Origin: Hexactinellida sp. DTS-2022
Taxonomy: Eukaryota > Porifera > Hexactinellida
Length of the DNA: 64,000 nt
Direction of reading: 5' to 3'
Assembly (NCBI GenBank): GCA_028753945.1
Contig: JAPNXP010000017.1
Coordinates: forward strand, 2,170,001-2,234,000
Numbering within the stretch: the stretch's first letter is position 1; every line of letters begins with the position of its first letter. The notes under the pieces were generated by a model. That model had not been told where the DNA came from. It did no database searches and saw only the letters and a program-made list of their open reading frames with translations. The position numbers were made by a program, and so were the translations under genes. Of this stretch, positions 2,639 through 29,436 are shown piece after piece.

Positions 2639-2703
2639 GTAAGTTAGAAATCGGTGTTAATAAGGTTTGAATTTGTATTTGTTTGTATTTATTAGCGGTG
2701 AGT

Positions 2704-3696
2704 TCAGTTATACCCAATTGAAATAACAACATCATATTTTACAGTTGTTTGATAGTTTGCACATAACATATAATAGCTTTTGCCTGACCGATAGTTGATA
2801 GTTTCTGTTGAAGGTATCTTTCGCTTTTGTTCGTCTTTGTTTGTATCAACTGTGACACCTAAAAACAAATAAATAAATAAGCAAAAGAACAAACCAATAA
2901 CAGGATTAAGCTTTGAAAGTTGAGGATTTTCTGTTGGGAAAATAGAAAAATATAGCAAAGTATTTGGCGGAATTTGGTCTAAGATTTCTTCATCTATTGG
3001 GCTTTGGTCAAATAGGGTTTCGTTGGAATATAAACTGAAATTTGTTGTATAAAGTAAGGGTTGTATTATGCTCTTTAGTTTTCCAAACAATTCAAATGAA
3101 TTTAAATCCCTTCTTATGCGCTCGGGAATTCGTTTTTCTTTTGATTCCTTAATAATCTCAGGTTTTTGGATAATATTTGAAACGATTATTGGCCCTATTA
3201 TAACCGATATTTTCACACTTATGAGCTCAATAATCCATTCGCCAAGTTGTTCTAGAGCTTTTTCAAATGAAAGGCCATTGCAATATAAACTCGAAAAGAA
3301 CAACAAAACCCTTAGTTTCAATTCGGGATGGAAGGAATGTATTTTCTGCATTTTTTCAGAAATTAGTTTTCTACATTTAAGACATGGACTGTTCGTGATC
3401 CAAATTGCCAAATCGAATATGGAATTTTCAATTTTATTTTCAGGATTTTTCATGAAATTATCAAACAGTTCCTCAAAATTTCTTAAAGCTATATTTTCAG
3501 CATGTATTATTTCACTGCTATTAGGACACTTAATAGCCGAGACACAATTATCTGAGTTAGTTAGTTCAACTATTATCTCTCCATTTCTATAAACAGATGA
3601 CATCCAACAATAAGTTGTCAGTCTCTTTAAACTCGTGCCCCAGAGTTGATGAAGTTCTTCTTCGGAGTAGTTCTTATTTGAAATATTCCAAGACAT
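2704..3696 (-). CDS. AID/APOBEC-like cytidine deaminase D1
   Basis: 330 residues, no clear intron. The zinc-dependent deaminase signature is present: H65-A-E67, then SPCLKC at 103..108. After it come LKLRVLLFFSSLY and a helix-strand pair ending ISVIIGPIIVS, which parallels the LRIFTARLY...VQIAIM part of human AID. By family knowledge such enzymes deaminate cytosine in single-stranded DNA or RNA; activity here is inferred. The N-terminus (MSWNISNKNYSEEE) differs from the MLSFVR start of D2-D8 and is shared only with D4. Residues 266..283 are strongly hydrophobic: either a C-terminal membrane segment or a 36-base in-frame intron (GTTTGT...TTTTAG). An acceptor-like TTTAG directly precedes the ATG. 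Confidence 0.85.
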   Translation of the reverse strand: MSWNISNKNYSEEELHQLWGTSLKRLTTYCWMSSVYRNGEIIVELTNSDNCVSAIKCPNSSEIIHAENIALRNFEELFDNFMKNPENKIENSIFDLAIWITNSPCLKCRKLISEKMQKIHSFHPELKLRVLLFFSSLYCNGLSFEKALEQLGEWIIELISVKISVIIGPIIVSNIIQKPEIIKESKEKRIPERIRRDLNSFELFGKLKSIIQPLLYTTNFSLYSNETLFDQSPIDEEILDQIPPNTLLYFSIFPTENPQLSKLNPVIGLFFCLFIYLFLGVTVDTNKDEQKRKIPSTETINYRSGKSYYMLCANYQTTVKYDVVISIGYN

Positions 3697-3703
3697 CTAA
3701 ATA

Positions 3704-3875
3704 CAGTAGATTCTCGTTAGTAGGAACACGGATAAGGGAAATATCGGTTAAGGAGTACAAGGTTAAATCCCCTAGCCTATAAAAATGCATGCAAGTGACT
3801 CCGGATAATACGAACATGTTTAGACGGTCCCCTGGTGTTCGTATAAAGGCTAAATGTCGCATATTTAACGAGAAT
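3704..3875. mobile_element. Family A MITE abutting the D1 start codon
   Basis: CAGTAGATTCTCGTTAGTAGG end begins 8 bases upstream of the D1 ATG. Shared with D4 (12062..12250), so it inserted before the block duplication. The far end is degraded. Confidence 0.75.
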
Positions 3876-4403
3876 AAACAAAAATATACTGAAACCTCTC
3901 TATAGGGTACGAAAATTGTTCCTTATTAGAAATAAGTAAACGAATAAACAAACTCACCTTTTTTGAAGAATAATTAAATAATTATTATTAACAACAATTT
4001 GTATTTAAATGATTTTTGAATTAACTATGATTTCTGTGAAAAGCTATTTATATAGCAAATATTTCGTAATGCATATTTTCGAACCTGAAAGCTTATGGCT
4101 TGTTACATTCCTTTCTACACAAGTTGTTGTGTAGGTACAATGGTTGTGGAATTACTTATGGTACTTACCTAAATTCGCTGTAATATTAATTAGCAATCGG
4201 TAATTTCCAGTTTAAATAGCTGTGAGATAAGATAAGAGTTCATATTATTGCAATAGTAATGCTGACTATACGTAACTATATTATTAATACTAGGTACTAG
4301 GTAGTAATATTATTATTTAAAATACTAATCAACTTTTTAATTGTTAAAAGTTAAGAACAGTGAAAATGGGTTATTTTAGGGAAATTAGAAAAATAAATAA
4401 AAT
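3876..4403. other. Intergenic spacer between D1 and D2
   Basis: AT-rich, no reading frame of note. Nearly identical to 12251..12747 in duplication copy 2, including the phrase 'tactaggtactaggtagtaat'. The D2 terminator region and the D1 upstream region must lie here. Confidence 0.6.
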
Positions 4404-5213
4404 TCAATTCAATAGTCTTTTTTTTTCTTTTTTACTTCTTGACCATATTTCTTGGAATGATTCAGGAATAAATAAATCAATTTTCAATTGAGACAGGTTA
4501 TGTTTATCCTTTGGGAAAATTGCTATGTTAATAGGTTGTTCCCAGTTGAAGAAAAGTGTATTTGGGTTTGCAGCTAAATTATTGCTCTGGGTAATCCCAA
4601 ATAAATTAGATTCCGTTAGATTTCCCGTAATACATTGTAGAATGTTTTGGAAATTTTTGATGCAAGTTTCATCCCGTTCTTCAACTTCCGTCAATTCTCT
4701 ATAATATTGATCCATGCCCAATATTGGAACCATATAAAATACGATTATAGGACAAATAAAAACAACTGTTCCCATTTCCACTAAACTCAGAATCCATTCA
4801 GTAAATAAATAAATAATATCCATTTCAGGTTCCAAATCAGTGTCATACAAATTTGAAAATAATAAAATTAAACGTATTGAAGTGTAATTTTGTAACTTCT
4901 TTATCCAACCAAAAATACGAGCCCTACAACCCGTACACGGGCTATTATTTGACGAAATTATAAAATCAAGAACAGAGTGGGGAGTATGGTGTTTCATCAT
5001 CAAAAAGAATAAATTTTGCTCAATCGAATTATAACCAATTATTTCCGCATGCATACGATCAGTAGTAATAGCATTACAGCAAATCTGAAATAACTCTTCA
5101 TTATTATCCGAATCCCCTAGAGAAAATGTAATTCTACATACAGTTGTTGCTGGAAATGGACACCAAAAATACTCTCTTTCCTCATGCGTGAAATTTCTTA
5201 CAAAAGACAACAT
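4404..5213 (-). CDS. AID/APOBEC-like cytidine deaminase D2
   Basis: 269 residues, single exon. Begins MLSFVRNFTHEERE; H55-A-E57 and SPCTGC at 91..96 give the zinc-binding and proton-shuttle residues. The core continues TSIRLILLFSNLY ... LFTEWILSLVEMGTVVFICP, the order of strands and helices found in the AID/APOBEC fold. The C-terminal 110 residues contain the family-wide motif FNWEQPINIAIFPKDK (F-W-x2-P-x-x-I-x-I-x-P). D5 is its duplicate. The ATG follows ACTTATTTAG|A, an acceptor-like sequence seen before most genes of the cluster. Confidence 0.86.
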   Translation of the reverse strand: MLSFVRNFTHEEREYFWCPFPATTVCRITFSLGDSDNNEELFQICCNAITTDRMHAEIIGYNSIEQNLFFLMMKHHTPHSVLDFIISSNNSPCTGCRARIFGWIKKLQNYTSIRLILLFSNLYDTDLEPEMDIIYLFTEWILSLVEMGTVVFICPIIVFYMVPILGMDQYYRELTEVEERDETCIKNFQNILQCITGNLTESNLFGITQSNNLAANPNTLFFNWEQPINIAIFPKDKHNLSQLKIDLFIPESFQEIWSRSKKEKKRLLN

Positions 5214-5350
5214 TCTAAATAAGTAAATAATAACAATTCAGGATTGAAACAACAAACATTAAGTAGAAAATAATATTCAATTATATTATCACATTCTTTC
5301 TTATAATGTATAATGAGTAACGATATAATAAACCTAATAATATAAATTAC

Positions 5351-5490
5351 AGTGAATTCTGGTTATAACGGGTATAACGAAATACCAGTTTATAACGAAG
5401 TTATTTCTATTCCCCAGACGGATGAAATAATTGAATTTACTCCGCTTATATCGAACGTATATTGAAACAGATTAAGGGGTCCCTAGGACT
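5351..5490. mobile_element. Family C MITE (CAGTGAATTCTGGTTATAACG end)
   Basis: Related to copies near 13715, 15101, 23291, 41650 and 50248. The inner phrase 'tataacgaagttatttctattccccagac' is shared by the deaminase-cluster copies. Non-autonomous, degraded at the right end. Confidence 0.55.
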
Positions 5491-5661
5491 TTAATTTGGA
5501 AGAATATATAAATATAAGTAAAGTTTGAAAAATTGTTTATCGTCAATAATTGAGAAATAAATAAATAGTAGTAAATAGAAAAGTGTATTATAAAAAGAGA
5601 AATTCATAAAATTTAGATATTCGGTATTGTTTACATCAAACTCTAAAAAAGCTCAATGAGT

Positions 5662-6608
5662 TTACTTTGGGACATAGGTTTTCGTTGTTTCGCTCTTAAA
5701 GAAACCTTTTTTTCTGCCGAAACAATTTCTACGCATGCTGTTGTAAGAATAGGGATTGGAAGCGTGTTTTTTGTAAGAATAGGATTTTAAAGAGTGTTTT
5801 GTTGAATACTTCTTAGATTTTAGAGAGATTATTTCAGAAACTTCTGTCAGTGGAAATTTCAAAAATAAGTCCGAAAGATTTTCTTTATTCTGAGGGACTA
5901 TTGAAATAAATTGTGGATTTTCCCAAGTAAATAAGCTTAAGTAAACTGAATATTTTCGATTGAAAAAATCGTGACTTGGGAAAACATTAAAAAAATTGTT
6001 TTGAGGAACAGATTTCTTAGACCTGAACTCTTTGAGCAATTTCCTGAATATTTCTATAATTCTCTCATCAGCCTTTACAACACTTAACAATTCTTTAAAT
6101 CTATAATTGAATTCTGGAAGCATTTTGAACACAACAATTGGGCAAATAATAACAACAATTTGATTTCCAACAATTTCTAGAATCCACTTTATAAACGGTT
6201 CCAAAACAGTAGAAACGGGTTTTTTAACAGTATACTTGTATAAACTCGAGAAGAATAGAATCAAACGAATCGAGGTGTGCGGTATTATTGTCTGTATTTC
6301 CTTAATCCAATTTAGAATTTCTTTCCTACATTTGGTACAAGGACTGTTATTAAGTGATATTATAAAGTCTAATAATTGCAAATTATTCTGATGAGGGAGA
6401 AGAGTTAATAATTCATCTTTTATTGAGTTATAAGCAGCTACTTCGGCATGGTCATCCTCAGTATTTCGAGAATAACTATCAATTAAAGATATTTCTCCGT
6501 TTATAAAAAAGTCATTCTACACATAGTTATGCGATAAATTCGATGTTGGTAAGGACGCCAAAAGTACTTAACATCATTAGATGAGAAGTCTCTGATAAAA
6601 GATAACAT
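5662..6608 (-). pseudogene. AID/APOBEC-like deaminase D3, apparently broken
   Basis: The 3' 239 codons are open (5662..6381) and include SPCTKC, TSIRLILFFSSLY, VVIICPIVVFKMLPEF and the C-terminal WENPQFISIVP motif. The tail ends SMRRNCFGRKKGFFK...TKTYVPK, as in D6. The 5' part, from an ATG at 6608, encodes MLSFIRDFSS and then a CRMTF-like stretch. It is separated by a frameshift from the part that holds DHAEVAAYNSI, so the HAE and SPCxxC halves are joined only across the break. It is either a pseudogene or a gene spliced in a way not visible here. D6 is its intact relative. Confidence 0.75.
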
Positions 6609-7161
6609 TCTAAATCGAAAGATTTATCAATAAATATAGACCAATAAGTTGATAGACTGCTTTGGTGTGTACAGTATAATCTCGTTAGTAGGAACACCAG
6701 GGGACCGTCAAAATGTATAGTCGTGACCTACGTAATATAAGGCCATGGCACAGGATGTGAAATTTGGACTATGGATATGTCACCAGGCCGGATTTAAAAA
6801 GCACAAAATCAATTCAAATAGTTTATTTGATTGGTTATCCTCATAATGTAGCTTCTTTATGAAGCGTAAAAGTATTAAAACAGATATACGCATGTACAGT
6901 TGCATGTTCTGTACGTAACACAATGAACTAGGAAAGGACTATTAGAAACAGATAATTTTTATATACTATTTTAACTCAATTTTAACTTCTTTAATTTCCT
7001 ACAATTTTCGCTTCTTGACAACAATACTGAATTTACGTTTTTCACTTTGTTAGCAATAATACAGTTGCTGGTGACTGTTATCAGTTTAGTTAGAATATCC
7101 CAACCAAATGTACTGCAATTTTGACAACTTCTTCCCCATTCTTCATTACTGTCTAGCTCAA
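6609..7161. other. Intergenic, partial MITE, no gene seen
   Basis: A partial family A MITE end (about 6671..6720, CAGTATAATCTCGTTAGTAGG to GGGGACCGTC) is present. The rest is AT-rich and contains no supported coding region. Confidence 0.5.
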
Positions 7162-9110
7162 TTAGTGTAAGGGATAGTTGGACAAGGATTTCCCGTGAAG
7201 TCCTGTTGAAAACAGTTTCAAGAGAGGTTCATTCTGTTCTATTATTGAAAAGCATCTCCAAACCATAACAATGGAATCCACAACTATATTAGATGGCCAT
7301 TTGAGGGATCCGCGGTCTATTACATTGATTAATTGAAATTTCGGGTTATCAAAAAGCATATCTTTATCTTCTGTAAGAAATTTTAAACATACTTGACATT
7401 TTGAAGTCGATTTCATATAGGAATGAACAGCATAGCCTGCGATAAACACAAGGGACTGTAAAATTTCGTCTTTCAAAACAATTCGAGAAAGGTCATCCAT
7501 TTCGACCATGTAATCTTCTAAATCAAAGGAGAAATTTAACTCATGTCCGGGTCCAGTGGTCTGTCCTGAATTATTCGCGAGAAAATCTTTTAGTGAATTA
7601 CAATCACTTGTGTCTGTCTCTGTACTTTGGGAAAAACAATTTTAATTCATGTGACAATTTCAATCTTCTTTCAGACTGCAGAATTTGACAGTAACTGATG
7701 TGATATTGAGCGCCAGACATCATGCGATAGGCCCAAAATGGTGTTCGAGAGGATCATTCTGTAATCGAGAGCTTAACACGTATTGAAACTGTCTATTCTC
7801 AGTGAGAAAATTAACGATTTTAGGAAGTGCCATACAAGAATGCTTAAAAGAAGTGAAGGTTTGTGCTGATAATTTCCCGTTTTTCTCTGATCTTGATGAC
7901 CAACAGTCTAACCAATCCACTACTTTGGAAAGAAAGGAAAAAACGAAATCGTTATGTCCAAGTTGTTTTGAATATTCATCATTTAATCGTATGTCTTTAT
8001 TTGGAACATTGACGTTGAATACTTTCCAAATATTAAGGATGAGGGTAACAAATTCTGCTGTGTGTGATTTGATAGTTGAACGAGAATTCGAAAATACACT
8101 AAGAGCACCAACTGTAGACTCATCAAAAATTTTTAAGGCAAGATTTACATTTTGTCTCTCAAAATTTGAAGGGTAACACGATTTAGCAGTTTGTCGAGGA
8201 GCGAGCTTAACTACAGAGTGTTGTTCAGTTTTGTATAACATGCGGATGTCTTCAAACGAAGCTGTATTAAGAACACTAAAATCTTCGAATCTGGGAACAC
8301 AAATGTTCGCTGATAGTCTTTAAGATTGAGCCAATTGTTCCGAATGGTTTTTAGAATATGTACAAAATCGAATACCAAGAATAATTGCCGATATGGATCA
8401 CAAGGGTGTATAATTCTGGTGTTAATGTCTTTTGATCTGGGGAAAATAATTTGAAAAGACTAACATTCAAAGGATATTTATCAGTGCAGATAACATGAAC
8501 GGACAATCCACAATTTTCTATTTCGCCAATTAGTTGTGTAATTACAGGCTTTAGTTCAATTGCTGAGGTGCTAGAACAAGGTAACAGACGTACAATTTCT
8601 GACCATTTTCGATACAAACTGGATACCATTACAGCAAAAACAGTTTTGGTGGGCTCGTTTGAATTAAGCGTAGAACCAATGATTTCCCCCCCTTTGTATG
8701 AGATGTCTGATTTGATATGGATTTCATCCATGTGGATGATAACATTGCGTTGAAGATATGTGAAATTAGAAGTAACTTTTTCGAGATAACTTGAAAATTC
8801 ACTCTCTAAGCCAATATTGGAACACAATTTTAATATATTCCTTTGATTCGGTAAACAAAGGCACTCGAGCGATTGAAGATAACTATAACAAGCTGGAGAG
8901 ATGAGGTGTACCTTTATAGCAACAACTTGTGTAATGATGTTGTATCGCCGACGATTCTTGAAACGGAGGGAATTTTCAACTTGACAGAGGATAAATTGCA
9001 GTCTCTGTTGAATTATGTTAAGATTGTATGAAGTATTTCCACTAAAACTCTCTGAATCTTGGTCTGAATAATCACATTCGGCTATAGCTAATTTTATTTG
9101 TGCTGCACCT
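7162..9110 (-). mobile_element. Decayed P-element/THAP9-like DNA transposon (transposase remnants)
   Basis: Three blocks in order on the minus strand. Block 8351..9110 has HMDEIHIKSDISYKGGEIIG and VICTDKYPLNVSLFKLF, typical of the RNase H-like core of P-element transposases. The piece near 8250..8400, in another frame, reads FDFVHILKTIRNNWLN, the conserved D-x2-H-x2-K-x-I-RN-x-W motif. Block 7720..8241 ends LQNDPLEHHFGPIA, like the THAP9 C-terminal L-x2-D-x-LE-x2-FG-x-I motif; 7162..7509 has FIAGYAVH and CQVC. The N-terminal THAP DNA-binding region is missing, and at least one frameshift and a gap separate the blocks. The upstream end coincides with the left edge of duplication copy 2. No terminal repeats were found. 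Confidence 0.8.
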
Positions 9111-9749
9111 GGTAGCTCCCTTATAAACAACAACAACAACAACAACAACAAATAATAATACTTTTCTACCCTGTTTAGCTGTTGAGTATCTATAAAAATA
9201 ATAATAATAAAATTAAATAAACAAATAGAAAAACATAAACAGAAATACAAAAAATTCATAATAAACAAGATACAAACTGGTTTTGAGATAATCCGACACG
9301 ATTAGCTTGAAACTTGTGTCTCGATCTAAAAATAATAAAGCAATTGGTACCAATTGGAACTAAATTATTATAAATCGCTTTATGACAGATTTTGGTTAGT
9401 AAAGTAACCAAATATGGTGCAATATGGAACTATAACTAACCTTGGTTACATAATGGGATTGCGAATAGCGATTGGGTAGTTTTTATCCTCCCCTAATAAA
9501 ACAGACAGGTATTCACAGAAAATAAGAATAGTATACTAATCCATGGTTAATTTGCTATAATAACAGAATTAAATCTGGAATTATTACTGAAACAGAACCA
9601 TGGAATAGTTCCATTAATTCATTACAAATGCAGAAATTACAAAACTCTATTGTCACTGCAATGGGGAATGTATAAATCAATAAACACATAAATACACACT
9701 GTTTATATATAATCCATGGTATAAACTAGTAGCAATAATACTATAACTG

Positions 9750-10024
9750 TACCATGAGATTTGATTGGCTTATTAGCCCCCAATTAGGCCCAAGGGACTC
9801 CCTAACCTGGGTTCATACTGACAGCCGATTGGCTAGCATGACCCAGTGGGGCTAACTCAATAACAGCTGTTAACTGCTACCCCCAGTCAGCCAGTCTGGA
9901 GTATAAATAGGAGGAAACACAGCGAGTAAACCGTGGGACTATGTTCCTCGGAATTGTATTTGTTTTTATTTGTTTGTTGCAAACGTAATCAAAACTACTG
10001 CTAGTACGAGTTGTATTTAATTGG
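9750..10024 (+). promoter_or_regulatory. Duplicated promoter-like region (copy 2)
   Basis: TATAAATA at 9902..9909, the same CCAAT boxes and AACAGCTGTT palindrome as copy 1, ATG at 9941 opening the same short frame, and donor GTAAGT at 10025. Very few differences from 2365..2638. Confidence 0.6.
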
Positions 10025-10075
10025 GTAAGTTAGAAATCGGTGTTAATAAAGTTAGAATTTATTAATTTACGAGCC

Positions 10076-10182
10076 CTTCGGTCTCGGTCGCTTTGCGACA
10101 GATCGGTGCTACGCACCTCAAGTTAACGGCCGCTGTGCGGCCTTACTCCTCACACTTTCTACCATGGAAATGGTAGAAAGGG
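10076..10182. repeat. Cluster of GC-rich hairpins
   Basis: Short perfect or near-perfect hairpins in a row: TCGCTTTGCGA, GGTGCTACGCACC, GGCCGCTGTGCGGCC and CTTTCTACCA...TGGTAGAAAG. GC content is well above the surroundings. It lies at the start of the insertion found only in duplication copy 2. Smaller GC-rich inverted motifs of the same style occur at about 16160..16210. Confidence 0.7.
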
Positions 10183-10187
10183 GCGTT

Positions 10188-10890
10188 ATGATTTTGAATT
10201 TTTTATTAATTTGTTTACCTATTTGTGTAAACAACAACAACAACAACAAATACTCATATTAGAATTTTATAAATGCGAAAATCGTGTTCATCATCTTGTT
10301 TACCTATTATACCCGTTGAAAGCTAACTTCTAGGTTGATTTTGAATTTTCATTAATTTGTTTACCTATTTTGTGTAGACAACAACAACAAATATTCATAT
10401 GAGAAATTTTTTAACGCGAAATTCGTGTTCAGCATACTTGTTTACCTATAATACCCGTTGAAAGCTAACTTCTAGGTTGATTTTGAATTTTCATTAATTT
10501 GTTTACCTATTTTGTGTAAACAACAACAACAAATATTCATATGAGAAATTTTTAAACGCGAAATTCGTGTTCAGCATACTTGTTTACCTATAATATCCGT
10601 TGAAAGCTAACTTCTAGGTTGATTTTGAATTTTCATTAATTTGTTTACCTATTTTGTGTAAACAACAACAACAAATATTCATATGAGAAATTTTTAAACG
10701 CGAAATTCGTGTTCAGCATACTTGTTTACCTATAATACCCGTTGAAAGCTAACTTCTAGGTTGATTTTGAATTTTCATTAATTTGTTTACCTATTTTGTG
10801 TAAACAACAACAACAAATATTCATATGAGAAATTTATAAACGCGAAATTCGTGTTCAGCATACTTGTTTACCTATTATAACATTTGTTTA
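10188..10890 (+). repeat. Minisatellite, 142-bp unit, about five copies
   Basis: Unit starts gattttgaattttcattaat and contains gtttacctat, aacaacaacaa and atattcatatgag. Starts recur at about 10334, 10476, 10618 and 10760, exactly 142 bases apart. Units are nearly identical, with a shortened last unit. Followed by a CA microsatellite at about 10980. Confidence 0.9.
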
Positions 10891-11071
10891 CCTATTATAA
10901 CATTTGAAAGTTAGTTTATATCTCAATATTAATTGCGGTTTCTATTCCCCCAATCACTTTAATACAATCCGGACAAACAAACACACACACACACACACAC
11001 ACAAACAACAATCGAGATTTAATAATATAGATTAGCGGTGACTTCAGTTATACCCAATTGAAATAACAACA

Positions 11072-12055
11072 TCATATTGAACAGTTGTTTGATAGTTTGC
11101 ACATAACATATAATAGCTTTTGCCTGACCGATAGTTGATAGTTTCTTTTGAAGGTATCTTTCACTTTTGTTCGTCTTTTGTTGAAGTATTCGTCACCCAC
11201 CCCCCCAACAGTGACTCCTAAAAACAAATAAATAAGTAAGCAAAGGAACAAACCAATAACAGGATTAAGCTTTGAAAGTTGAGGGTTATCTGTTGGGTAA
11301 ATAGAAAAATATAATAAAGTGTTTGGCGGAATTTCCTGTAAAATATTCTCATCTATTGGAGTTCGGTCAAATAGGGTTTCGTTTGATTTAAAACTGAATT
11401 TCTTTGCATAAAGTAATGGTTGTATTATCCGCTTTAGTTTCCGAAAGAACACAATGGAATTTAAATCCCTTCTTATGCGTTTGGGGATTCGTTCACTTTT
11501 TGATTCCTTAACCGTTTGAGGTTTTTGGATAATATTTGATACGATTATTGGCCCGATTATAACCGATATTTTCACACCTATGAGCTCTATAATCCATTCG
11601 CTAAGTTGTTCTAGAGCTTTGTCAATTGTTAGGCCATTGCAATATAAACTCGAAAAGAACAACAAAACCCTTAGTTTCAATTCGGGATGTAAGGTATGTA
11701 TTTTCTGCATTTTTTCAGAAATTAATTCTCTACATTTAAGACACGGACTGTTTGTAATCCAAATTGCCAAATCGAATATGGAATTTTCAGTCATATTTTC
11801 ATGATTTTTCATGAAATTATCAAACAGTTCCTCAAAATTTCCCAAAGCTATATTTTCAGCGTGTATTATTTCACTGCTATTAGGACATTTAATAGCAGAA
11901 ACACTATTATCTGAGTTTGTTAGTTCAACTATTCTCTCTCCAGTTCTATAAACAGACGACATCCAACAATAAGTTGTCAGTCTCTTTGTACTCGTGCCCC
12001 AGAGTTGGTGAAGTTCTTCTTCGCTGTAGTTCTTGTTTGAAATATTCCAAGACAT
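11072..12055 (-). CDS. AID/APOBEC-like cytidine deaminase D4 (duplicate of D1)
   Basis: 327 residues. H-A-E at 65..67 and SPCLKC at 103..108 are intact, and LKLRVLLFFSSLY and ISVIIGPIIVS follow as in D1. The hydrophobic stretch PVIGLFLCLLIYLFLGVTV is conserved with conservative changes relative to D1. The last 45 residues differ from D1 because of small insertions, including a run of Cs near 11203. An acceptor-like ATTAG precedes the ATG, with a MITE (12062..12250) directly upstream as in D1. Function inferred as for D1. Confidence 0.85.
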   Translation of the reverse strand: MSWNISNKNYSEEELHQLWGTSTKRLTTYCWMSSVYRTGERIVELTNSDNSVSAIKCPNSSEIIHAENIALGNFEELFDNFMKNHENMTENSIFDLAIWITNSPCLKCRELISEKMQKIHTLHPELKLRVLLFFSSLYCNGLTIDKALEQLSEWIIELIGVKISVIIGPIIVSNIIQKPQTVKESKSERIPKRIRRDLNSIVFFRKLKRIIQPLLYAKKFSFKSNETLFDRTPIDENILQEIPPNTLLYFSIYPTDNPQLSKLNPVIGLFLCLLIYLFLGVTVGGVGDEYFNKRRTKVKDTFKRNYQLSVRQKLLYVMCKLSNNCSI

Positions 12056-12061
12056 CTAATA

Positions 12062-12250
12062 CAGTAGATTCTCGTTAATAGGAACACGGATATGGGGAAT
12101 ATCGGTTAAGGAGTACAAGGTTTAATTCCCCTAGCCTATACAAATGCATGCAAGTGACTCTGGTTAATACGAATTCCGGATAATACAAACATGTTTAGAC
12201 GGTCCCCTGGTATTCGTATAAAGGCTAAATGTCGCACATTTAACGAGAAT
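12062..12250. mobile_element. Family A MITE abutting the D4 start codon
   Basis: Duplicate of 3704..3875, same position relative to the ATG. Confidence 0.75.
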
Positions 12251-12747
12251 AGAAACAAAAATTATTCCTTATTAAAAATAAGTAAACGAATAAACAAACT
12301 CACTTTTTTTGAAGAATAAAATTAAATAATTATTATTAACAACAATTTGTATTTAAATGATTTTTGAATTAACTATGATTTTCTGTGAAAAGCTATTTAT
12401 ATAGTAAATATTTCGTAGTGCATATTTTCGAACCTGAAAGCTTATGGCTTGTTACATTCCTTTCTACACAAGTGGTTGTGTAGGTAAAGTGGTTGTGGAA
12501 ATTACTAATGGTACTTTACATAAATTCGCTGTAATATTAAATTAGCAATCGGTAATTTCCAGTTCAAATAGCTGTGAGATAGGAGTCCATATTATTGCAT
12601 AGTAATGCTGACTATACGTAACTATATTATTAATACTAGGTACTAGGTAGTAATATTATTATTTATTACCAATCAACTTTTTAATTGTTAAAAGTTAAGA
12701 ACAGTGAAAATAGGTTATTTTAGGGAAATTAGAAAAATAAATAAAAT

Positions 12748-13563
12748 TCAATTCAATAGTCTTTTTTTTTCTTTTTTACTTCTTGACCATATTTCTTGGA
12801 ATGATTCAGGAATAAATAAATCAATTTTCAATTGAGACAGGTTGTGTTTATCCTTTGGGAAAATTGCTATATGAATAGGTTGTTCCCAGTTGAAGAAAAG
12901 TGTATTTGGGTTTGCAGCTAAATTATTGCTCTGGGTAATCCCAAATAAATTAGATTCCGTTAGATTTCCCGTAATACATTGTAGAATGTTTTGGAAATTT
13001 TTGATGCAAGTTTCATCACGTTTTTCAACTTCCATCAATTCTCTATAATATTGATCCATGGGGAATATTGGAACCATAGCAGATACGATTATGGGACAAA
13101 TAAAAACAACAGTTCCCATTTCTACTAAACACAGAATCCATTCGCTAAATAAATAAATAATATCCATTTTAGGTTCTAAATCAGTGTCATACAAATTTGA
13201 AAATAATAAAATTAAACGTATCGAAGTGTAATTTTTTAACTTCTTTATTCAACCAAAAATACGAGCCCTACAACCCGTACATGGGCTATTATTTGACGAA
13301 ATTATAAAATCAAGAACAGAGTGGGGATCGGGAGTGTGATGTTTCATCATCAAATAGAATAAATTTTGCTCAATCGAATTATAACCAATTATTTCCGCAT
13401 GCATACGATCAGTAGTAATAGCATTACAACAAATCTGAAATAGCTCTTCATTATTATCCGAATCCCTTAGAGAAAAAGTCATTCTACATACAGTTGTTGC
13501 TGGAAATGGACACCAAAAATACTCTCTTTCCTCATGTGTGAAATTTCTTACAAAAGACAACAT
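12748..13563 (-). pseudogene. AID/APOBEC-like deaminase D5 (duplicate of D2), apparently broken
   Basis: Nearly identical to D2 throughout: MLSFVRNFTHEERE start, M-H-A-E and SPCTGC intact. A Trp codon just after SPCTGCRARIFG in D2 (TGG) is TGA here, which ends the first frame at 13249. The frame stays open downstream (12748..13194) with the same C-terminal motif. The remainder shows few changes, so loss looks recent. An assembly or allelic error is the alternative. Confidence 0.8.
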
Positions 13564-14025
13564 TCTAAATAAGTAAATAATAACAATTCAGGATTGAAAC
13601 AACAAACATTAAGTAGAAAATAATATTCAATTATATTATCACATTCTTTCTAAGGAGCTTTCTTATAATGTATAATGAGTAACGATATAATAAACCTAAT
13701 AATATAAATAACAGTGAATTCTGGTTATAACGGGTATAACGAAATACCAGTTTATAACGAAGTTATTTCTATTCCCCAGACGGATGAAATAATTGAATTT
13801 ACTCCGCTTATATCGAACGTATATTGAAACAGATTAAAGGGGCCCCTAGGAATTTCATTTGGAAGAATATATAAATAAAAGTAAAGTCTGAAAAATAGTT
13901 TATCGTCAATAATTGAGAAATAAATAAATAGTAGTAAAATAGAAAAGTGTATTATAAAAAGAGATATTCATAAAATTTAGATATTCTGTATTGTTAACAT
14001 CAAACTCTAAAAAAGCTCAATGATT

Positions 14026-14964
14026 TTACTTTGGGACATAGGTTTTCGTTGTTTCCCTCTTAAAGAAACCTTTTTTTCTGCCGAAACAATTTCTACGCAT
14101 GCTGTTGTAAGAATAGGGATTGGAAGCGTGTTTTGTTAACTTCTTTTTAGATTTTGGAGAGATTGTTTCAGCTAATTCTTCTGTGAGTGGAAATTTCAAA
14201 AATATGTCCGAAAATTTTTCTTTATTTCGAGGGACTATTGAAATAAATTGAGGATTTTCCCAAGAAAATAAGCTTAAGCGGACCGAATCTAAAAATTCGT
14301 CACTTGGGAAAATGTTAAAAAAATCGTTTTGAGGAAGTGATTGCTGAGAATTTAACTCTTTGAGCAATTTCCTGAATATTTCTATAATTCTCTGATCGGC
14401 CTTTACTCGGCCTTTTACAATACTTAACAATTCTTTAAACGTAAAATCGAATTCTGGAAGCATTTTGAACACAACAATTGGGCAAATAATAACAACAAAT
14501 TGATTTCCAACAATTTCTAGAATCCACTTTATAAACGGTCTCAAAACAGTGGACACATCTTCATTATCAGAATACTGGTATAAACTCGAGAAGAATAGAA
14601 TCAAACGAATTGATGTGTTGGGTATTAATGGCTGTATCTCCTTAATCCATTTTAGAATTTTTATCATACAGTCGCTACAAGGACTGTTATTAAGTGCTAT
14701 TATAAAGTCTAATAATTGCAAATTATTCTGTTGGTAATTTGCTTTTTTCAGACGAATGAATAATTCTTCTTTTATTAAGTTAAAAGCAGCAACTTCGGCA
14801 TGCACATGCTCCGTTACCATAGAATTAGAGTTTTTATTAAACAACTCGTTATTATTATTATCCCTTAGAGAGAAAGTCATTCTACATACAGTTGTTGGTT
14901 CTGGAAATGGACGCCAAAAATAATCTCTTTCTTGATATGTGAAGTTTCTTACAAAAGACAACAT
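14026..14964 (-). CDS. AID/APOBEC-like cytidine deaminase D6
   Basis: 312 residues, the longest intact MLSFVR-type copy. H55-A-E57 and SPCSDC at 94..99. Core: NTSIRLILFFSSLY, then FIKWILEIVGNQFVVIICPIV. C-terminal extension: SLFSWENPQFISIVPRNK, then a basic tail with HASNPYSYNSMRRN and FGRKKGFFK, shared only with D3. The basic tail could aid nucleic-acid binding or nuclear entry (inference). The ATG follows ACATATTTAG|A. Positional counterpart of D3, although its middle is closer to D7 in places. Confidence 0.86.
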   Translation of the reverse strand: MLSFVRNFTYQERDYFWRPFPEPTTVCRMTFSLRDNNNNELFNKNSNSMVTEHVHAEVAAFNLIKEELFIRLKKANYQQNNLQLLDFIIALNNSPCSDCMIKILKWIKEIQPLIPNTSIRLILFFSSLYQYSDNEDVSTVLRPFIKWILEIVGNQFVVIICPIVVFKMLPEFDFTFKELLSIVKGRVKADQRIIEIFRKLLKELNSQQSLPQNDFFNIFPSDEFLDSVRLSLFSWENPQFISIVPRNKEKFSDIFLKFPLTEELAETISPKSKKKLTKHASNPYSYNSMRRNCFGRKKGFFKRETTKTYVPK

Positions 14965-14990
14965 TCTAAATATGTAAATAATAACAATTC

Positions 14991-16343
14991 AGGATTAAAC
15001 AACAAAACATGAAGTAGAAAATAGTATTCAATTTTTATCAAATTTCTGCTTTTAATGTATAATGAGTAACGATATAATGCAGATAATAATTAAATTAAAG
15101 TGAATTCCGGTTATAACGATGTTGGATATAACGAAGTTATTTCTATTCCCCAGACAGATGAAATAATTGAATTTACTCCGCTTAGCACTTCACTGGGAAG
15201 AATACTGTATATAAATAAAAATTGTTTATTGTTAATAATCTTATATATTAAATCACAATGATTTTTTTTGTTTGTTTGTTTGTTCAGAATTGATTGAGGA
15301 ACTGGTAAGAGCTACAGGCTTGAAATTTGGCAGGAGGGTGGGAAATAGTGTATCTAGAAACAAGTTCTAATATCTAAGAAAAATATTTACATCTTCCCTC
15401 TCAAAAGGTGACAAAAAACTTTAGCCTACTTAGCCTATTAAATTCGAGGGTTTTCCAGTATGGATTAGCAGCTAGCATTCAATTCGTATAAAAGGATTTT
15501 AGTGTCTCTATCAATTGTTAAGTGTGCATTATAGAATGCCTATCTGAGACTGTGATTTAATTGGTCGAGAGGAAGTTCATTCATCCAATCAGTCAATGTG
15601 TTCCGTGTGTCTACCCATACATTTCTATCATTCCATTGTGTCTATTTGATTATTACCAATCAATTCAATAACTTCTCCACAGCCCAAAGTTAGGGGTCCA
15701 CAGAGTTGTACAGTTCCTTAGTGATATTTAATTAATTTTCTATTTGGAGTTGGTATATTATTATACACGAACATGCGTTAATATCTAGAAAATTGTCAGT
15801 TCTAATTAGCATAAATATTCAACAATCAGGCGCTGATTAGTATTTCCCAATTTATTTTTTATGTCCTTATACGTATATACCTATGGCTAGGGCTCACGGA
15901 TATATAGACAGCTTAGGGGGGCACAGCCCTTCTCTGAATCAATAGCATTACTGTTATGTGGGTCACTAGCGGTAAACTAAATATTACCCATATGATTCCC
16001 CGTAATATAATCGACCTGTGTATAGGGCCTTTGACATTTTTTTATAGGCGACTAAATTCAGTTTGAGCTCAATCATACATTACTCAATTTGCATTAAGTC
16101 TATTGGAGTATGTATATAAATACAACCGGCATTGATTTGAAAAGGCATGTGTTAGAATACAAGCGAGGGCCGCAGGCTCGAGTGCAAGTTGTAAGAACGC
16201 GCGTAGCGCGGACCAGCAGCTTGTTGTTAATAATTGAGAAATAAATAAATAGGAATTGAAATAGTGTTTTTTGTAATAATAGGAATTGAAATATAGTGTT
16301 TTTTGTAATAATAGGAAATGAAATAGTGTTTGTTGAATACTTT
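14991..16343. other. Intergenic, no gene supported
   Basis: Contains a family C MITE fragment near 15101..15190, a GC-rich stem-loop patch at about 16160..16210 (CGCGCGTAGCGCG) and, at 16220..16340, tandem copies of 'aataggaattgaaatagtgtttt'. The last look like the decayed coding tail of D7 (see findings). Nothing else coding seen. Confidence 0.55.
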
Positions 16344-17150
16344 TCAGATTTTTGAGATTTTTTCATCAACTTCTTCTGTCATTGGAAAATTCAAAAATAA
16401 TTCCGAAAGATTTTCTTTATTTCGAGGGACTATTGAAATAAATTGAGGATTTTCCCAAGAAAATAAGCTTAAGCGGACCGAATTTTCTGTATCGAAAAAA
16501 TCGTCACTTGGGAAAACATTAAAAAAATCGTTTTGAAGTGATTTGTTAAACCTGAACTCTTTGAGCAATCTCCTGAATATTTCTATAATATTCTCATCGA
16601 CTTGAACAATACTTAATAATTCTTCAAACGTAAAATCGAATTCTGGAAGCATTTTGTATACAATAAACGGGCAAATAATAACAACAGTTCCAATCCTAAC
16701 TAATTTCAGAATCCATTCTGTGAATAAAGTAAAACTACTACCTTGAGTTTCCCCAAACTTCCTAGTTATATAAAAATTTGAAAAAAATAAGATTAATCGA
16801 ACGGTAGTAACTTCTTGTAAATCGTGTATCCAACCAAATATGAGTTCCCTGCATTCGGAACAAGGACTGTAATTTAATGCAATTATAAAATCGAGAATTG
16901 AACAATCTGAGTTGTATTTCTGTAGACAATATGATAAATCTTCTCGTATTGTATTAAGAACTTTTTCTTCAGCATGAACATGATCCTGTGACGATTTTGA
17001 ATTGTAACTAATTCGGAATAATTCCCCGTTATTATGCACATCTCTTAATGAGAAAGTCAACCTACATACTGTGGTTGGTTGAATGAGCTCGAAAGGATAC
17101 CAAAAATGATATTCTTCCTCACGTGTGAAACTTCTTACAAAAGACAACAT
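16344..17150 (-). CDS. AID/APOBEC-like cytidine deaminase D7
   Basis: 268 residues. H59-A-E61 and SPCSEC at 95..100. The core has TTVRLILFFSNFY and LFTEWILKLVRIGTVVIICP (D2-like). The C-terminal half is D6-like: FDFTFEELLSIV, SLFSWENPQFISIVPRNK, LSELFLNFP. It ends at KISKI where D3 and D6 continue into a basic tail. The ATG follows ACTTCTTAG|T. Not part of the duplicated block. Confidence 0.86.
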   Translation of the reverse strand: MLSFVRSFTREEEYHFWYPFELIQPTTVCRLTFSLRDVHNNGELFRISYNSKSSQDHVHAEEKVLNTIREDLSYCLQKYNSDCSILDFIIALNYSPCSECRELIFGWIHDLQEVTTVRLILFFSNFYITRKFGETQGSSFTLFTEWILKLVRIGTVVIICPFIVYKMLPEFDFTFEELLSIVQVDENIIEIFRRLLKEFRFNKSLQNDFFNVFPSDDFFDTENSVRLSLFSWENPQFISIVPRNKENLSELFLNFPMTEEVDEKISKI

Positions 17151-17483
17151 ACTAAGAAGTAAATAATAACAATCCAGGATTGAAATAACAAATAGTGTAA
17201 TTGTTAAACTGACTATAGTGGCACATTACAATGAAATGGACTATAGTTTAATAAGCATTCTTAATCTATTATTAATAAATAAATAAGAAATATAAATGAA
17301 TAATAAAGTTCACTAAAAAGTTTGTGACTTGGGATAAATATATTGTATACAAATTTTAATATTAAAATGTAAAAAAATCAAATTGTAATTGTGTAATTAT
17401 ATTTAAAATAAAATTAAGGATTGAATACGAATTATGACTTTGAAAAGTGTTTTGTTGTTGTTTACATTCAGTTTTTCAGAAGA

Positions 17484-18287
17484 TTAAACCCTCCTTGGGT
17501 CTAGTTGATAGCTGACGCTTTTTGAACTGAATGCTTTACATTGTTCAGGTGGAAATAGTTTAAAAGTGGGAGATGTGACCTTTGGATAAATTGATATGTA
17601 TTGAAGGTTGTCCCAAGTGAATAGTCTCAAGGAGATAAAAGCTCCATATTTTAATAAATCCGGACTCAGATGAATATCAAAATCTTGTGTTGTATTTTGC
17701 AATAGTATGTTTTTTAGATTTAGAATATTTTCGAAACAAATATAATCATTTTCAATAGTTTTTGTCAATATTTTAAGATCATAATCGATTTCAGGAACCA
17801 TTATATGTACAATTATAGGGCAAATAATGACAACAGTTTTAATTTCAACTAAGTTTAGAATCCATTTTGTAAATAATGCAGTAATAATACCCTCTGTTTC
17901 TTCCTCAGATATATAAAAATGTGAAAATAATAAAATCAAACGAACAGGAGTTAAGGTTAAGGTTTGTAATTTTAATATCCATCCCATAATGGCCTCTCTA
18001 CAGGTACTACATGGACTGTTATTCGAAGCAATTATAAAATCAAGAAGGGAATAATCAGAGCTAGCATTTTCTTGTAAATATTTGGTTAATTCTTCTTGAA
18101 TTGAATCATAAGCAACGATTTCCGCATGTTTGTCTTTCGTGGGTATAGAATTGCAACTAATATTATATATTTCCTCATTATTTCTCCTTAATGAGAAAGT
18201 CATTCTGCATACTGTTGATGGATATGGAAATGGACGCCAAAAAAACTCCCTTTCCTCAGGTGTGAAATTTCTTACAAAAGACAACAT
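17484..18287 (-). CDS. AID/APOBEC-like cytidine deaminase D8
   Basis: 267 residues, intact. H54-A-E56 and SPCSTC at 91..96. Then TPVRLILLFSHFY and LFTKWILNLVEIKTVVIICPIIV. The C-terminal motif is FTWDNLQYISIYPK. This is the most divergent of the MLSFVR-type copies and the first gene of the minus-strand array. Its ATG lies about 200 bases from the divergent D9, so the two probably share a promoter region. The ATG follows ATTTATTAG|T. Confidence 0.86.
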   Translation of the reverse strand: MLSFVRNFTPEEREFFWRPFPYPSTVCRMTFSLRRNNEEIYNISCNSIPTKDKHAEIVAYDSIQEELTKYLQENASSDYSLLDFIIASNNSPCSTCREAIMGWILKLQTLTLTPVRLILLFSHFYISEEETEGIITALFTKWILNLVEIKTVVIICPIIVHIMVPEIDYDLKILTKTIENDYICFENILNLKNILLQNTTQDFDIHLSPDLLKYGAFISLRLFTWDNLQYISIYPKVTSPTFKLFPPEQCKAFSSKSVSYQLDPRRV

Positions 18288-18489
18288 ACTAATAAATAAA
18301 TAATAGAATTCAAAATATTTAATTTAAATATACTATTCAAATATTATCAAATTCTTATAGCGTATAACGAGTAACCATGCAATCGTGTATATTCCATAGA
18401 AATATAAAGAGAGTCCCTAAAATATACAAACCACATTCCTATAGCCACATTATAAAACCAGGATTTTAATTACATTAATTCATTTGAGA
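18288..18489. promoter_or_regulatory. Short divergent intergenic region between D8 and D9
   Basis: 202 bases separate two start codons pointing away from each other. AT-rich, containing GAAATATAAAGAGAG. Co-regulation of the deaminase D8 and the pseudo-deaminase D9 is inferred from the spacing only. Confidence 0.45.
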
Positions 18490-20367
18490 ATGGATTATAC
18501 AGAAGAAGAGAGACTTGAGTTTTGGAAAAGATCTGGAAATAAAACATTTATTTGGTGTCAAATAATAATAATAACAAATGAAAATGAAATAGAAATTATA
18601 TCAGATCATTTTACATACGACACTAATACTCAACATAATTTCATGAAAACAATAAATGAGCTACAAACAAACAACAACAAATATATTCCTATTATAGAAA
18701 CAGCTTGTACCATTGAATATAGAGTTTGGATAAACGAGTTTCCGAATGCAATAATTCAGGATCAAATAACGGATGCTTTATTAGAAATAAAACAAGTTTT
18801 CAAAGGTGTTAAAATACGGTTAACTCTATTCTTTGCAAACACTGGTAATATGATGGTAAAGCGATTATCTGATTGGATAAGGGAACTAAGGGGGAATGAT
18901 ATTAGTGTCATTATTGGACCGATTTTAGTGACGCATTCAATTGATGCACCTAGCAACACAAGTGAAGAAATGGAATGTGAAAGAATGCGAGAAGATAGTT
19001 TGTTGTTAAGGAAGATTTGGGCAACTTTAGTGTCGGTTTCCAGAGGTGTTAGTTCCGAAAAGGTTTTATTTCTAAGTGACTACATTGGAAATGATTACAG
19101 TACTAATTCAGTGATGGAATCATTTAGTAGTGAACAGTTATTTGTGTTCTATAAAATTGTGAAAACTTCAATGTCACTTTTATCACAAGATTTATCAGCT
19201 AGAGGTGTTAAAAATAAGTTGCAAATTGGATTTCCGCCTTTTTGTTTCATTTTCAAACTGGAACTACAAATACAGGACACTTTCTCAAAGAGTTTAATAT
19301 TGGAACCAACTTTGATGAAATATGGAAGTGAAAATTCAGTTTTCCATAAAATTGATGAAACAGTTAATGAACTTTGCATTGAATTCAAGAAAACGAAATT
19401 ATATTTAAGAAGTGTGCGAATTGTACTAAATAGTGTATCGGAACAATCCAGGGTTACGACAGACGCTCTATGGAATGTTGTCGAGGAAATACAACAAAAT
19501 AATTCAAACGGGAAAGGTGTGAAAAACATTACAAAAGTAGTTGAGAGTTTTATGAAAATGCAATCTGCCCAGAAAGATGTATCCATGGAAACACATCGGA
19601 ATGTGGAATATGAGTTGCATAAACTCAACCAATCAGCTATCGACCTAGATTACGCCATAAGGGAGCTAAATATAGACATTTTAAAATATTCTAAATTTGG
19701 TATCAATTTTGAAGATGCTTTTGAAATTTTAAAGAAATTCGAGAAAACGTTTGAAGGAACAGATTTATTGTTGATTTTAGAAAAAACAAACATGTTTTGT
19801 TTACTTTCTTTAAGTTATAAAGCAAGCAAATATTTATCCAAACAACAGCAAAACAAAGATAAAATGCAAACAAGTGAAATTACAGAAATCGAAGAGATGT
19901 TAGTTCGATTGACAAAAGAAACAAAATGGATTTCAACACAACTGGAATTAAAACAAGAATTACTTTCAAAATCGGACATTGAATTTGTAAAGAAGAAATA
20001 TGAGCTCACTCAAATGTTAATAAAGAACAATTCCCTAAAAAAACATTTTGAAAACGATCTACAATTTGCAAAAGGTTGCACACCTAAAGGAGAACTAAAT
20101 CAATTGTTATGTTTCAGTTCCAAATTAAGATGCGAACTTGCGAAAGAAAAAGAATACAATGAAACAATTAAAAATCCTTCTACAAACACGGATTTTAAGA
20201 TCCCTTATCCAAATATAAACATAAATATAAGTGAATATTTAGATCTAATTCATTGTAACAGAGATGATACTCCCAAAAGAATTTCTGAATTTGCAACAAA
20301 TATTCAATTAATTGAAGAGAAATTAACACAAATTGCTAAAATCCTATTTTTAGATAATTTGAGATAG
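18490..20367 (+). CDS. D9: inactive deaminase-like domain fused to a long helical tail
   Basis: 625 residues from the ATG at 18490. Residues 1..180 follow the D-family layout: MDYTEEERLEFWKRSG start, VKIRLTLFFAN, then LSDWIRELRGNDISVIIGPI, matching LxxWIxEL...ISVIIGPI of D1. The catalytic elements are gone: where HAE and SPCxxC should be there are THNFM-like and ETACTIEYRVWI sequences with no zinc ligands. Residues from about 190 onward are rich in Lys, Glu, Asn and Leu and predict long helices or coiled coil (for example MEEMLVRLTKETKW-like heptads near 450..520). It may act as a regulatory or scaffold partner of the active deaminases (inference). No other domain recognised. Confidence 0.75.
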   Translation: MDYTEEERLEFWKRSGNKTFIWCQIIIITNENEIEIISDHFTYDTNTQHNFMKTINELQTNNNKYIPIIETACTIEYRVWINEFPNAIIQDQITDALLEIKQVFKGVKIRLTLFFANTGNMMVKRLSDWIRELRGNDISVIIGPILVTHSIDAPSNTSEEMECERMREDSLLLRKIWATLVSVSRGVSSEKVLFLSDYIGNDYSTNSVMESFSSEQLFVFYKIVKTSMSLLSQDLSARGVKNKLQIGFPPFCFIFKLELQIQDTFSKSLILEPTLMKYGSENSVFHKIDETVNELCIEFKKTKLYLRSVRIVLNSVSEQSRVTTDALWNVVEEIQQNNSNGKGVKNITKVVESFMKMQSAQKDVSMETHRNVEYELHKLNQSAIDLDYAIRELNIDILKYSKFGINFEDAFEILKKFEKTFEGTDLLLILEKTNMFCLLSLSYKASKYLSKQQQNKDKMQTSEITEIEEMLVRLTKETKWISTQLELKQELLSKSDIEFVKKKYELTQMLIKNNSLKKHFENDLQFAKGCTPKGELNQLLCFSSKLRCELAKEKEYNETIKNPSTNTDFKIPYPNININISEYLDLIHCNRDDTPKRISEFATNIQLIEEKLTQIAKILFLDNLR

Positions 20368-22947: not shown

Positions 22948-23926
22948 TTCAGCTATCTAGTAGGCCTAGACACTCAAATGGTATTCGTAATGGATAAATA
23001 AACAAATTGGAAATATTGGGATCCCGATTCTACCTAGGGCAGTTCTAACGTTACGTAAAGGAAAATTCCAAGGAAATTAGACACTCCCCTCATTTTACAT
23101 TTTTCTGACCTGTTTGTATTATAAAACGGATGGTTTGTCACAAAAAAAGGATAACCCCCTCACTTGGATTAATTAGTATTTTGGAAATTATAATATTTAG
23201 AAAGCGAAAATCGGTGTAGCTATTATTTTCAAATAAGTTTGCCAAGGTGTCAATGATTATTATACAACTCGATTGCGTACAAATGTAGTACAGTAAACTC
23301 CCGTTTAGAACAAACTAAATGCATTAATTATTATCCGCTTATAACGAAGGGATTTACAGGTCCCAAACACTTCGTTATAACGTGTGACTTATAAAGAAGC
23401 TAGTTTGAATCAATATAACTATGCAACCCTGCTTTTATATGAAATCTAATTATCCTAATTGCCCTATAATTATCCCATCTGAAGGAAATATACGACACAA
23501 TAGCTAAGACATGAGCATACTTTGAATAGCTGAGTATTAATATATAACAATTGGGCTTTAGTCAAAATGTGAGCGAGTGTGGTCAAAGGAAATTCCTAGA
23601 AAAACCTTAGGAAATAGAATATAAATTACTTATATCAAGCCTACACCTTGAATGTAATTCAGACACTGGTAAAGTCAGATTAGCAAATATACCTTAACAA
23701 CTCGAGTCACTTTACTAGTGACAAATTTGATGACTGGAGAATCATCAAGTCGATGAGATTAAACTTGAAAAGTATGCCTTTGCCTAACAGCAATATATAT
23801 TAGCAAGTTATTTTCAGTCCTCATAATGTTGATTTTCCTCTAATAGAAATTTCGTGCAAAATGCGACTTGATATTACCCGACCAAAACTGTAGTTTGTAT
23901 ATTGTAAAGGTGTTTGGCCGATCTAC
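22948..23926. other. Intergenic with MITE remnants
   Basis: A degraded GTTACGTAA MITE at about 23035..23165, a family C MITE at about 23291..23390 (CAGTAAACTCCCGTTTAGAAC ... TTCGTTATAACG) and a family D fragment at about 23795..23875 (TGCAAAATGCGACTTG). No coding region supported. Confidence 0.55.
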
Positions 23927-29123: not shown

Positions 29124-29436
29124 ATTTATACCTTAACTATAATAATGCTATTTGTCTTATCATTCATTTGTATTAGCAAACCTATTAACGTATATGCTTA
29201 CGTAAAATGATTTATTTCCAGGTAAATGTAATTAGGTATTGTATCTAATTAAGAGTTAGTTTCATATTAGATTGTCAGTATATTAGGTCAATTTATAAAT
29301 AATAATTATTTGTAATATCCTGTATTTCAGTAATTCATTGCAAATTGATAATATCCTAAAGTTAATGGATAATATTATTCAACAAATTGACAAATTGTAA
29401 GTACAAGCATAATGCAGAAATGTGATTTTTAAACTT

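Follow-up and report, generated by a model that had tools for sequence, protein, structure and literature searches.

A tandem cluster of AID/APOBEC-like deaminase genes with an adjoining predicted pseudo-deaminase in a glass sponge

Vertebrates depend on AID/APOBEC enzymes for antibody diversification and for much of their intrinsic antiviral defence. AID/APOBEC-like genes are also present in invertebrates, and those of sea urchin and brachiopod are reported to have enzymatic activity and to be induced upon pathogen challenge (Liu et al. 2018, PMC5956068); the words 'sponge', 'Porifera' and 'Amphimedon' have no occurrences in the main text of that paper. Among the closest known systems is the AID/APOBEC family, in particular the metazoan clades NAD1 and SNAD4 of Krishnan et al. 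2018, represented here by PMC11004436 and PMC8201067 and by the Pfam models; SNAD4 is said in the former to have been identified only in sponges. The main text of two glass-sponge genome papers (PMC10280926, PMC10282587) contains no occurrence of deaminases or APOBEC. The locus described here resembles the AID/APOBEC family, these clades in particular, in its catalytic motif, its fold and its best profile matches, and differs from them in that its genes stand in tandem beside a dead neighbour with a helical tail.

The window is the whole analysed stretch of 64,000 nucleotides. Eight minus-strand HAE...SPCxxC genes, D1 to D8, lie in tandem between positions 2,704 and 18,287, and a ninth gene, FUS, is arranged head-to-head with the last of them.

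2691..6615, minus strand: block copy A (D1-D3), from the block alignment
2704..3696, minus strand: D1, predicted AID/APOBEC-like deaminase, ORF of 330 aa, own subclass with D4
4404..5213, minus strand: D2, predicted AID/APOBEC-like deaminase, 269 aa, HAE at residue 55
5662..6608, minus strand: D3, predicted AID/APOBEC-like deaminase, broken frame
7162..9301, minus strand: transposase fragments (TNP-like) between the block copies, outside the deaminase system
11031..14971, minus strand: block copy B (D4-D6), from the block alignment
11072..12055, minus strand: D4, predicted AID/APOBEC-like deaminase, duplicate of D1 (block duplication)
12748..13563, minus strand: D5, duplicate of D2, pseudogene with an in-frame TGA at codon 105
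14026..14964, minus strand: D6, predicted AID/APOBEC-like deaminase, structure modelled
16344..17150, minus strand: D7, predicted AID/APOBEC-like deaminase, NAD1 28.1 bits (cut-off 27)
17484..18287, minus strand: D8, predicted AID/APOBEC-like deaminase
18288..18489, no strand: 202 bp separating the start codons of D8 (minus) and FUS (plus), from coordinates
18490..20367, plus strand: FUS, 625 aa, predicted pseudo-deaminase ending in a long helical tail, from hhalign, Foldseek and homologues
19339..20343, plus strand: FUS helical tail, model residues 287-621, from DSSP on a low-confidence model (pLDDT block means 28-69)

A six-frame scan of the window for H[AVI][ED]...PCxxC returned eight occurrences, all of the HAE...SPCxxC form and all on the minus strand (3504, 5051, 6450, 11863, 13401, 14802, 16976 and 18128), in keeping with the eight minus-strand copies of the original prediction. 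HAE...SPCxxC occurred in 0 of 100 order-2 Markov sequences of window length, and the looser HxE...PCxxC four times in total over 100 such sequences. The spacing between HAE and SPC, put earlier at 33-40 residues, is real and slightly tighter (32-36). Downstream, the proposed order of an R-L-I-L-F-F/L-S-x-x-Y strand, a helix and a V-I-I-C/G-P-I strand is present in all eight genes with small variants, RVLLFFSSLY in D1/D4 and VFICPI in D2/D5. The zinc/catalytic motif H-x-E...P-C-x-x-C is whole in every cluster gene and, in the wider set, in 44 of 46 active-type rows (C6 counted in; S allowed for P). Frames are open in six of the eight genes, the exceptions being D5 and D3; in the latter, the frame from the ATG at 6608 meets a stop at 6503, and the catalytic part is open in another frame from 6516.

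Profiles and predicted structure indicate that D1-D8 are AID/APOBEC-like deaminases, as originally proposed. In Pfam scans of 21 members at E<=0.01, NAD1 was the most frequent profile (19/21), with SNAD4 (18/21) and APOBEC_N (17/21) close behind. Among the seven cluster genes with a whole motif that were scanned entire, the curated AID/APOBEC cut-off was reached by three, D3 (NAD1 27.1 bits, cut-off 27; APOBEC_N 25.0, cut-off 25), D6 and D7, and was not reached by D1 (APOBEC_N E 3.2e-5, NAD1 E 2.2e-4), D2 (NAD1 E 4.5e-5), D4 (NAD1 E 2.7e-5, APOBEC_N E 3e-5) or D8 (APOBEC4 E 0.0017, NAD1 E 0.0021), and this mixed outcome is a point of difference from the known family and its clades. D5 was scanned as two separate halves, neither of which matches an AID/APOBEC Pfam model. 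Structure prediction, proposed earlier as a check, gave for D6 a five-stranded deaminase fold in AID/APOBEC order, and all 40 Foldseek matches to this model in the PDB at E<=0.001 are AID/APOBEC.

The C-terminal part of the D6 model contains a long helix spanning residues 176-208, accompanied by two short strands. Structural alignments of the model to AID/APOBEC extend to about residue 202-210, and therefore the common C-terminal extension, which is real but had been called unrecognised, begins with a part that corresponds to the last portion of the AID/APOBEC fold. Beyond about residue 210 the D6 model has no structural match in the AID/APOBEC alignments, which again sets it apart from the known family. 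The F-x-W-x-N-P-Q-x-I-S-I-x-P core that was thought to be common is exact in D3, D6 and D7, changed in D2, D5 and D8, and much looser in D1 and D4.

SNAD4 is a secreted sponge clade, for which a signal peptide is expected. Judged by eye, N-termini of the cluster such as MLSFVRNF or MSWNIS show none; likewise, no hydrophobic core is seen by eye in the first 20 residues of D6. A membrane anchor was considered at the hydrophobic, conserved-looking end of D1 and D4 (GLFFCLFIYLFLG in D1). This stretch can alternatively be read as a putative 36-nt intron with GT...AG ends (2859-2894 in D1, 11218-11253 in D4), both readings being in frame, and homologues such as P0034 and P0038 carry charged residues there; for these two reasons, we do not claim a membrane protein.

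Relatives were collected by protein searches that depend on shared 5-residue words. Those with a named source all come from the glass sponge Oopsacas minuta, in agreement with the prediction of an invertebrate-type genome; the remainder are ENA proteins, whose rows carry no organism. The tree supports the predicted lineage expansion. In it, D1 falls in a clade of 14 (D1, D4 and 12 homologues), and D8 groups with P0008/P0009 (support 100/98). One relative, C6 (APOBEC_N E 2.9e-11), is missed by the cluster queries and, as a query, finds only itself, and so we regard it as a separate, more classical AID/APOBEC gene. A phage origin of the cluster was also considered and set aside, since 50,697 phage records searched by tblastn with D6 contained no match.

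FUS is the most unusual part of the locus. This gene, adjoining the cluster on the opposite strand, had escaped the original prediction, as had three dispersed relatives elsewhere in the same genome. The head-to-head order is directly observed, and the 202-bp interval is possibly a common promoter of D8 and FUS. FUS matches a profile of the active cluster genes (hhalign probability 97.4, E 1.6e-11), its match to D4 within its own genome has E 3e-8, and 17 of 17 Foldseek matches at E<=0.001 are AID/APOBEC. No Pfam family was found for FUS, helical tail included, and the best PDB sequence match has E 1.7. Neither HxE nor PCxxC is present in the first 195 residues of any of eight FUS homologues examined for them, and N/H and I/L/M stand where the two cysteines would be expected. 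On these comparisons and the predicted fold, FUS is a homologue of AID/APOBEC-like domains that lacks the catalytic motif: a pseudo-deaminase rather than one of the family's enzymes. Its full-length homologues in relatives number seven, with identities of 50-86%; all are likewise devoid of the motifs and lie on seven different contigs, and FUS changes more slowly than the active genes on the same contigs. The tree places FUS beside the D1 class, a doubtful placement because long branches meet. Weak Pfam matches of two homologues (P0019, AGO_N E 0.0044; P0020, DUF6620 E 0.042) are under the cut-off and were taken as chance.

We consider it about an even chance (roughly 0.5) that the locus encodes a family of defence-type deaminases together with a conserved partner that is not catalytic. 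The active members would deaminate cytosine, giving uracil, in single-stranded DNA or RNA. The mechanism would be the one usual for AID/APOBEC enzymes, in which Glu is the proton shuttle and one His and two Cys hold a Zn-activated water; their targets would be mainly viruses or retroelements. Less certainly, FUS may serve as a constant partner. Its deaminase-like domain would then pair with the catalytic chains, which change, and its helical tail would guide them to a target or scaffold, a role like that of ADAT3 towards ADAT2. More tentatively still, glass sponges may possess a two-part AID/APOBEC system, in which changing catalytic deaminases share one slowly changing pseudo-deaminase as a targeting or assembly subunit. 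We met no such division of labour in the open-access literature that we searched.

It is somewhat less probable that the active genes are defence-type deaminases that work alone, and that FUS is an old duplicate with an unrelated structural role, kept nearby only through tandem growth. The locus has indeed grown in tandem, as shown by the block duplication; a single full-length dead gene was found by search in this genome, so that C1 and C4, where dispersed relatives lie, have none beside them; and the FUS tail has no assigned family. However, the deaminase-like domain of FUS is conserved about as well as the whole protein (84% versus 86%), and the linkage of dead and active genes is kept on five of the seven contigs with FUS homologues, both of which speak against this reading.

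A block of three genes is present twice, as D1-D3 and as D4-D6, the copies being 88% identical over 4,028 columns; the transposase fragments between them match TNP-like_RNaseH_N (E 6.3e-14) and, just under cut-off, TNP-like_GBD (E 5.7e-5). The non-coding DNA between the genes is 94-100% identical per 100 nt and more alike than most of the coding DNA (D1 79-97%, D2 90-100%, D3 68-100%), and coding Ks (0.11-0.31) exceeds the intergenic divergence; exchange between paralogues is a likely cause. Ka/Ks over eight pairs is 0.23-0.70 (NG86, own script). The three duplicate pairs give 0.45, 0.23 and 0.70 (bootstrap range of the last, 0.46-1.04), Ka of D1/D4 being inflated by the inclusion of a tail that is read in different frames in D1 and D4. 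Positive selection was considered and finds no support in these whole-gene values. Duplication and decay, as predicted, are evident in the block copies and in the broken D3 and D5, but rapid change by positive selection is not supported, given these Ka/Ks values and subfamilies that persist in the tree across contigs of relatives.

Purifying selection and these lasting subfamilies would also suit a role in C-to-U editing of endogenous sponge transcripts, comparable to that of APOBEC1, in which different paralogues serve different targets. So would a small test for retroelement editing, in which no footprint was found in 23 pairs from 30 loci with reverse transcriptase matches (best of 150 scored, biased to intact copies), the lowest p for G-A asymmetry being 0.078, with low power. 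We nevertheless regard this explanation as unlikely. Changes in copy number, broken genes and a duplicated block, all seen here, are more typical of conflict genes than of housekeeping editors.

That the active genes are free nucleotide, dCMP or tRNA deaminases is very improbable. The dCMP_cyt_deam_1 model matches 6 of 21 members, and deoxycytidylate deaminase 1vq2_A (E 0.053 and 0.043) came second when the PDB was searched by sequence, behind APOBEC-2 (E 0.003 and 0.018); but in the profile search that had been proposed as a check, AID/APOBEC models match far more members, and the fold matches at E<=0.001 are to AID/APOBEC only. Least probable of all is that the sponge diversifies its own receptor genes in a programmed way, as AID or lamprey CDA do, no cassette array or receptor family being seen in the window, where eight other ORFs were scanned with Pfam.

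As to the proposed non-catalytic partner, double-domain APOBEC3 proteins such as APOBEC3G combine an inactive N-terminal domain with an active C-terminal domain. The dead AID/APOBEC domain assists the active one, much as proposed for FUS; here, in contrast, dead and active members are encoded separately and transcribed divergently, and a helical tail is attached to the dead protein. The sea-urchin and brachiopod genes likewise form an invertebrate AID/APOBEC-like family, in different phyla. If our reading is true, an elaborated AID/APOBEC machinery would reach back to an early-branching animal lineage, and on the two-part reading early animals would have had an innate machine for editing nucleic acids in which labour was divided. 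The locus offers a compact test case, with two genes, a 202-bp interval and clear predictions on binding and activity. The tRNA deaminase ADAT2/ADAT3, which lies outside AID/APOBEC, unlike the cluster, is described in PMC7713142 as a catalytic chain working with a dead paralogue that carries an extra domain, an arrangement like that proposed for the active genes and FUS; yeast ADAT3 keeps a zinc-binding site and loses the Glu, whereas FUS lacks HxE and both cysteine positions.

A six-frame scan of the window recovered eight HAE...SPCxxC motifs, all on the minus strand and all within 2704-18287, with no further H[AVI][ED]...PCxxC match besides these. The motif was absent from 100 order-2 Markov sequences of window size, and the looser HxE...PCxxC pattern occurred four times in total over 100 such sequences. 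The predicted tandem cluster of eight deaminase genes (D1-D8) is borne out, and we judge its assignment to an AID/APOBEC-like family to be right. The HAE-to-SPC gap is 32-36 residues, and six of the eight genes have open reading frames; the D3 frame is broken (start 6608, stop 6503), its catalytic part being open in a different frame, and D5 is interrupted by TGA at codon 105. A T-rich 36-nt stretch ends D1 (2859-2894, minus strand) and D4 (11218-11253, minus strand) and is compatible with two readings, a GT...AG intron and a tail of hydrophobic residues; hydrophobic C-terminal ends resembling these are also present in relatives.

D4-D6 and D1-D3 are two copies of one three-gene block. Other features of the window are as follows.

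7162-9301, minus strand: TNP-like transposase fragments (P-element/THAP9-type), between both block copies
20575-22956, minus strand: RUN and PX domain gene, an ordinary neighbour, next after the dead deaminase
27894-29132, minus strand: NHL-repeat protein
32527-34446, plus strand: zf-TRAF protein containing an extended repetitive region

Two repeat pairs lie outside the block genes (2305-2674 and 9686-10060, 96.8% identity over 375 columns; 2058-2291 and 9300-9546), and a tandem array of 142-bp period, its inner copies 98-99% alike, adjoins D4 at 10153-11004. Within the block, intergenic non-coding DNA is more similar between copies than most coding DNA, which suggests exchange with other paralogues. 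Ka/Ks (NG86, our own script) was 0.45 for D1/D4, 0.23 for D2/D5 and 0.70 for D3/D6 (bootstrap 0.46-1.04); five additional pairs gave 0.30-0.46. These values argue for constraint, with possible relaxation in D3/D6, and the arms-race reading of the original prediction holds only in part. Given this constraint and the conserved motif, the active members are likely to be catalytic.

The genome comprises 112.4 Mb in 18 contigs, the window being bases 2,170,001-2,234,000 of its contig 9. Own-genome searches by single proteins score the best candidates only, so member counts are lower bounds; outside the cluster they found at least one relative on contig C1 (L010, 4631147-4632043, minus strand) and at least one on contig C4 (761065-762042). 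The C1 gene has relatives of 69-87% identity on three other contigs and is a slowly changing class within the active family. A gene on contig C6 (L001, 497546-498406, minus strand; HPEAKF...SPCNNC) is separate, single and more classically AID/APOBEC (APOBEC_N, E 2.9e-11); it was missed by the cluster queries, and its own search of the genome returned itself alone.

Database searches returned 15 proteins for D6, seven for the dead gene and 21, 20 of them new, for a nine-sequence profile. The named relatives (P0015, P0019 and P0025) are all from the glass sponge Oopsacas minuta, the others being ENA proteins, and the genome is probably that of a glass sponge as well; P0025 (LOD99_14671) is called an RNase H type-1 protein in UniRef, yet it carries HAE and SPCxxC, and the name therefore looks wrong. 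The tree of 50 rows (C6, P0013, P0033 and P0042 omitted) contains a dead-gene class (8 rows), a D1/D4 class (14), C4, a C1-type class (8, to which P0015 adds a long branch) and an expanded class of D2, D3 and D5-D8 (18). Some subfamilies extend across contigs (D8 with P0008 and P0009; C1 with P0023, P0024 and P0014). The sister group of the dead gene is uncertain because its long branches meet those of the D1 class.

The conserved dead neighbour, a pseudo-deaminase gene head-to-head with D8, is the most interesting part of the locus. Its seven homologues are full length (86, 73, 70, 54, 51, 51 and 50% identity), and five of their seven contigs, proteins from contigs of identical length being assigned to one contig, also carry active members (contigs are labelled by their length).

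385678: P0001, P0008, P0012, P0029
763633: P0032
799374: P0007, P0010, P0030
410180: P0015 (consecutive locus tags, LOD99_5982 and 5983)
312331: P0034

No active member was found on contigs 118822 and 24875 among the homologues retrieved. Over the first 190 residues, identity was 84% for the dead gene against 47-75% for active pairings on 385678 (n=7, not all orthologous), 77% against 63% on 763633 and 70% against 53-61% on 799374. This low rate is not peculiar to the dead gene, since the C1-type gene is conserved about as well (89, 74 and 75%, on other contigs). Of the readings compatible with the evidence, the boldest, to which we give a probability of roughly 0.35, is that the cluster and the dead gene may form a two-part system.

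Reverse transcriptase gave 608 candidates genome-wide (150 scored, all 150 matching over the cut-off) and integrase 706 (150 scored matches over the cut-off); some of these matches lie in long open frames and in pairs of nearly identical copies. The genome is thus rich in reverse-transcriptase elements, and editing targets therefore exist; in a test for retroelement editing, asymmetric G/A differences at p<0.05 were seen in none of 23 pairs from 30 reverse-transcriptase loci.

A CRISPR review aside, we found no open-access literature on glass-sponge APOBECs, and Krishnan et al. 2018 may describe sponge members; neither the O. minuta nor the A. vastus genome paper (PMC10280926, PMC10282587) uses 'deaminase' or 'APOBEC' in its main text. 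Activity and induction are reported for sea urchin and brachiopod by Liu et al. 2018 (PMC5956068). SNADs, of which SNAD4 is described as identified in sponges only, are said to have a signal peptide (PMC11004436); by eye, no such peptide is apparent in the cluster proteins. A dead partner with an added domain would resemble, in logic only, ADAT3, which supports ADAT2 (PMC7713142).
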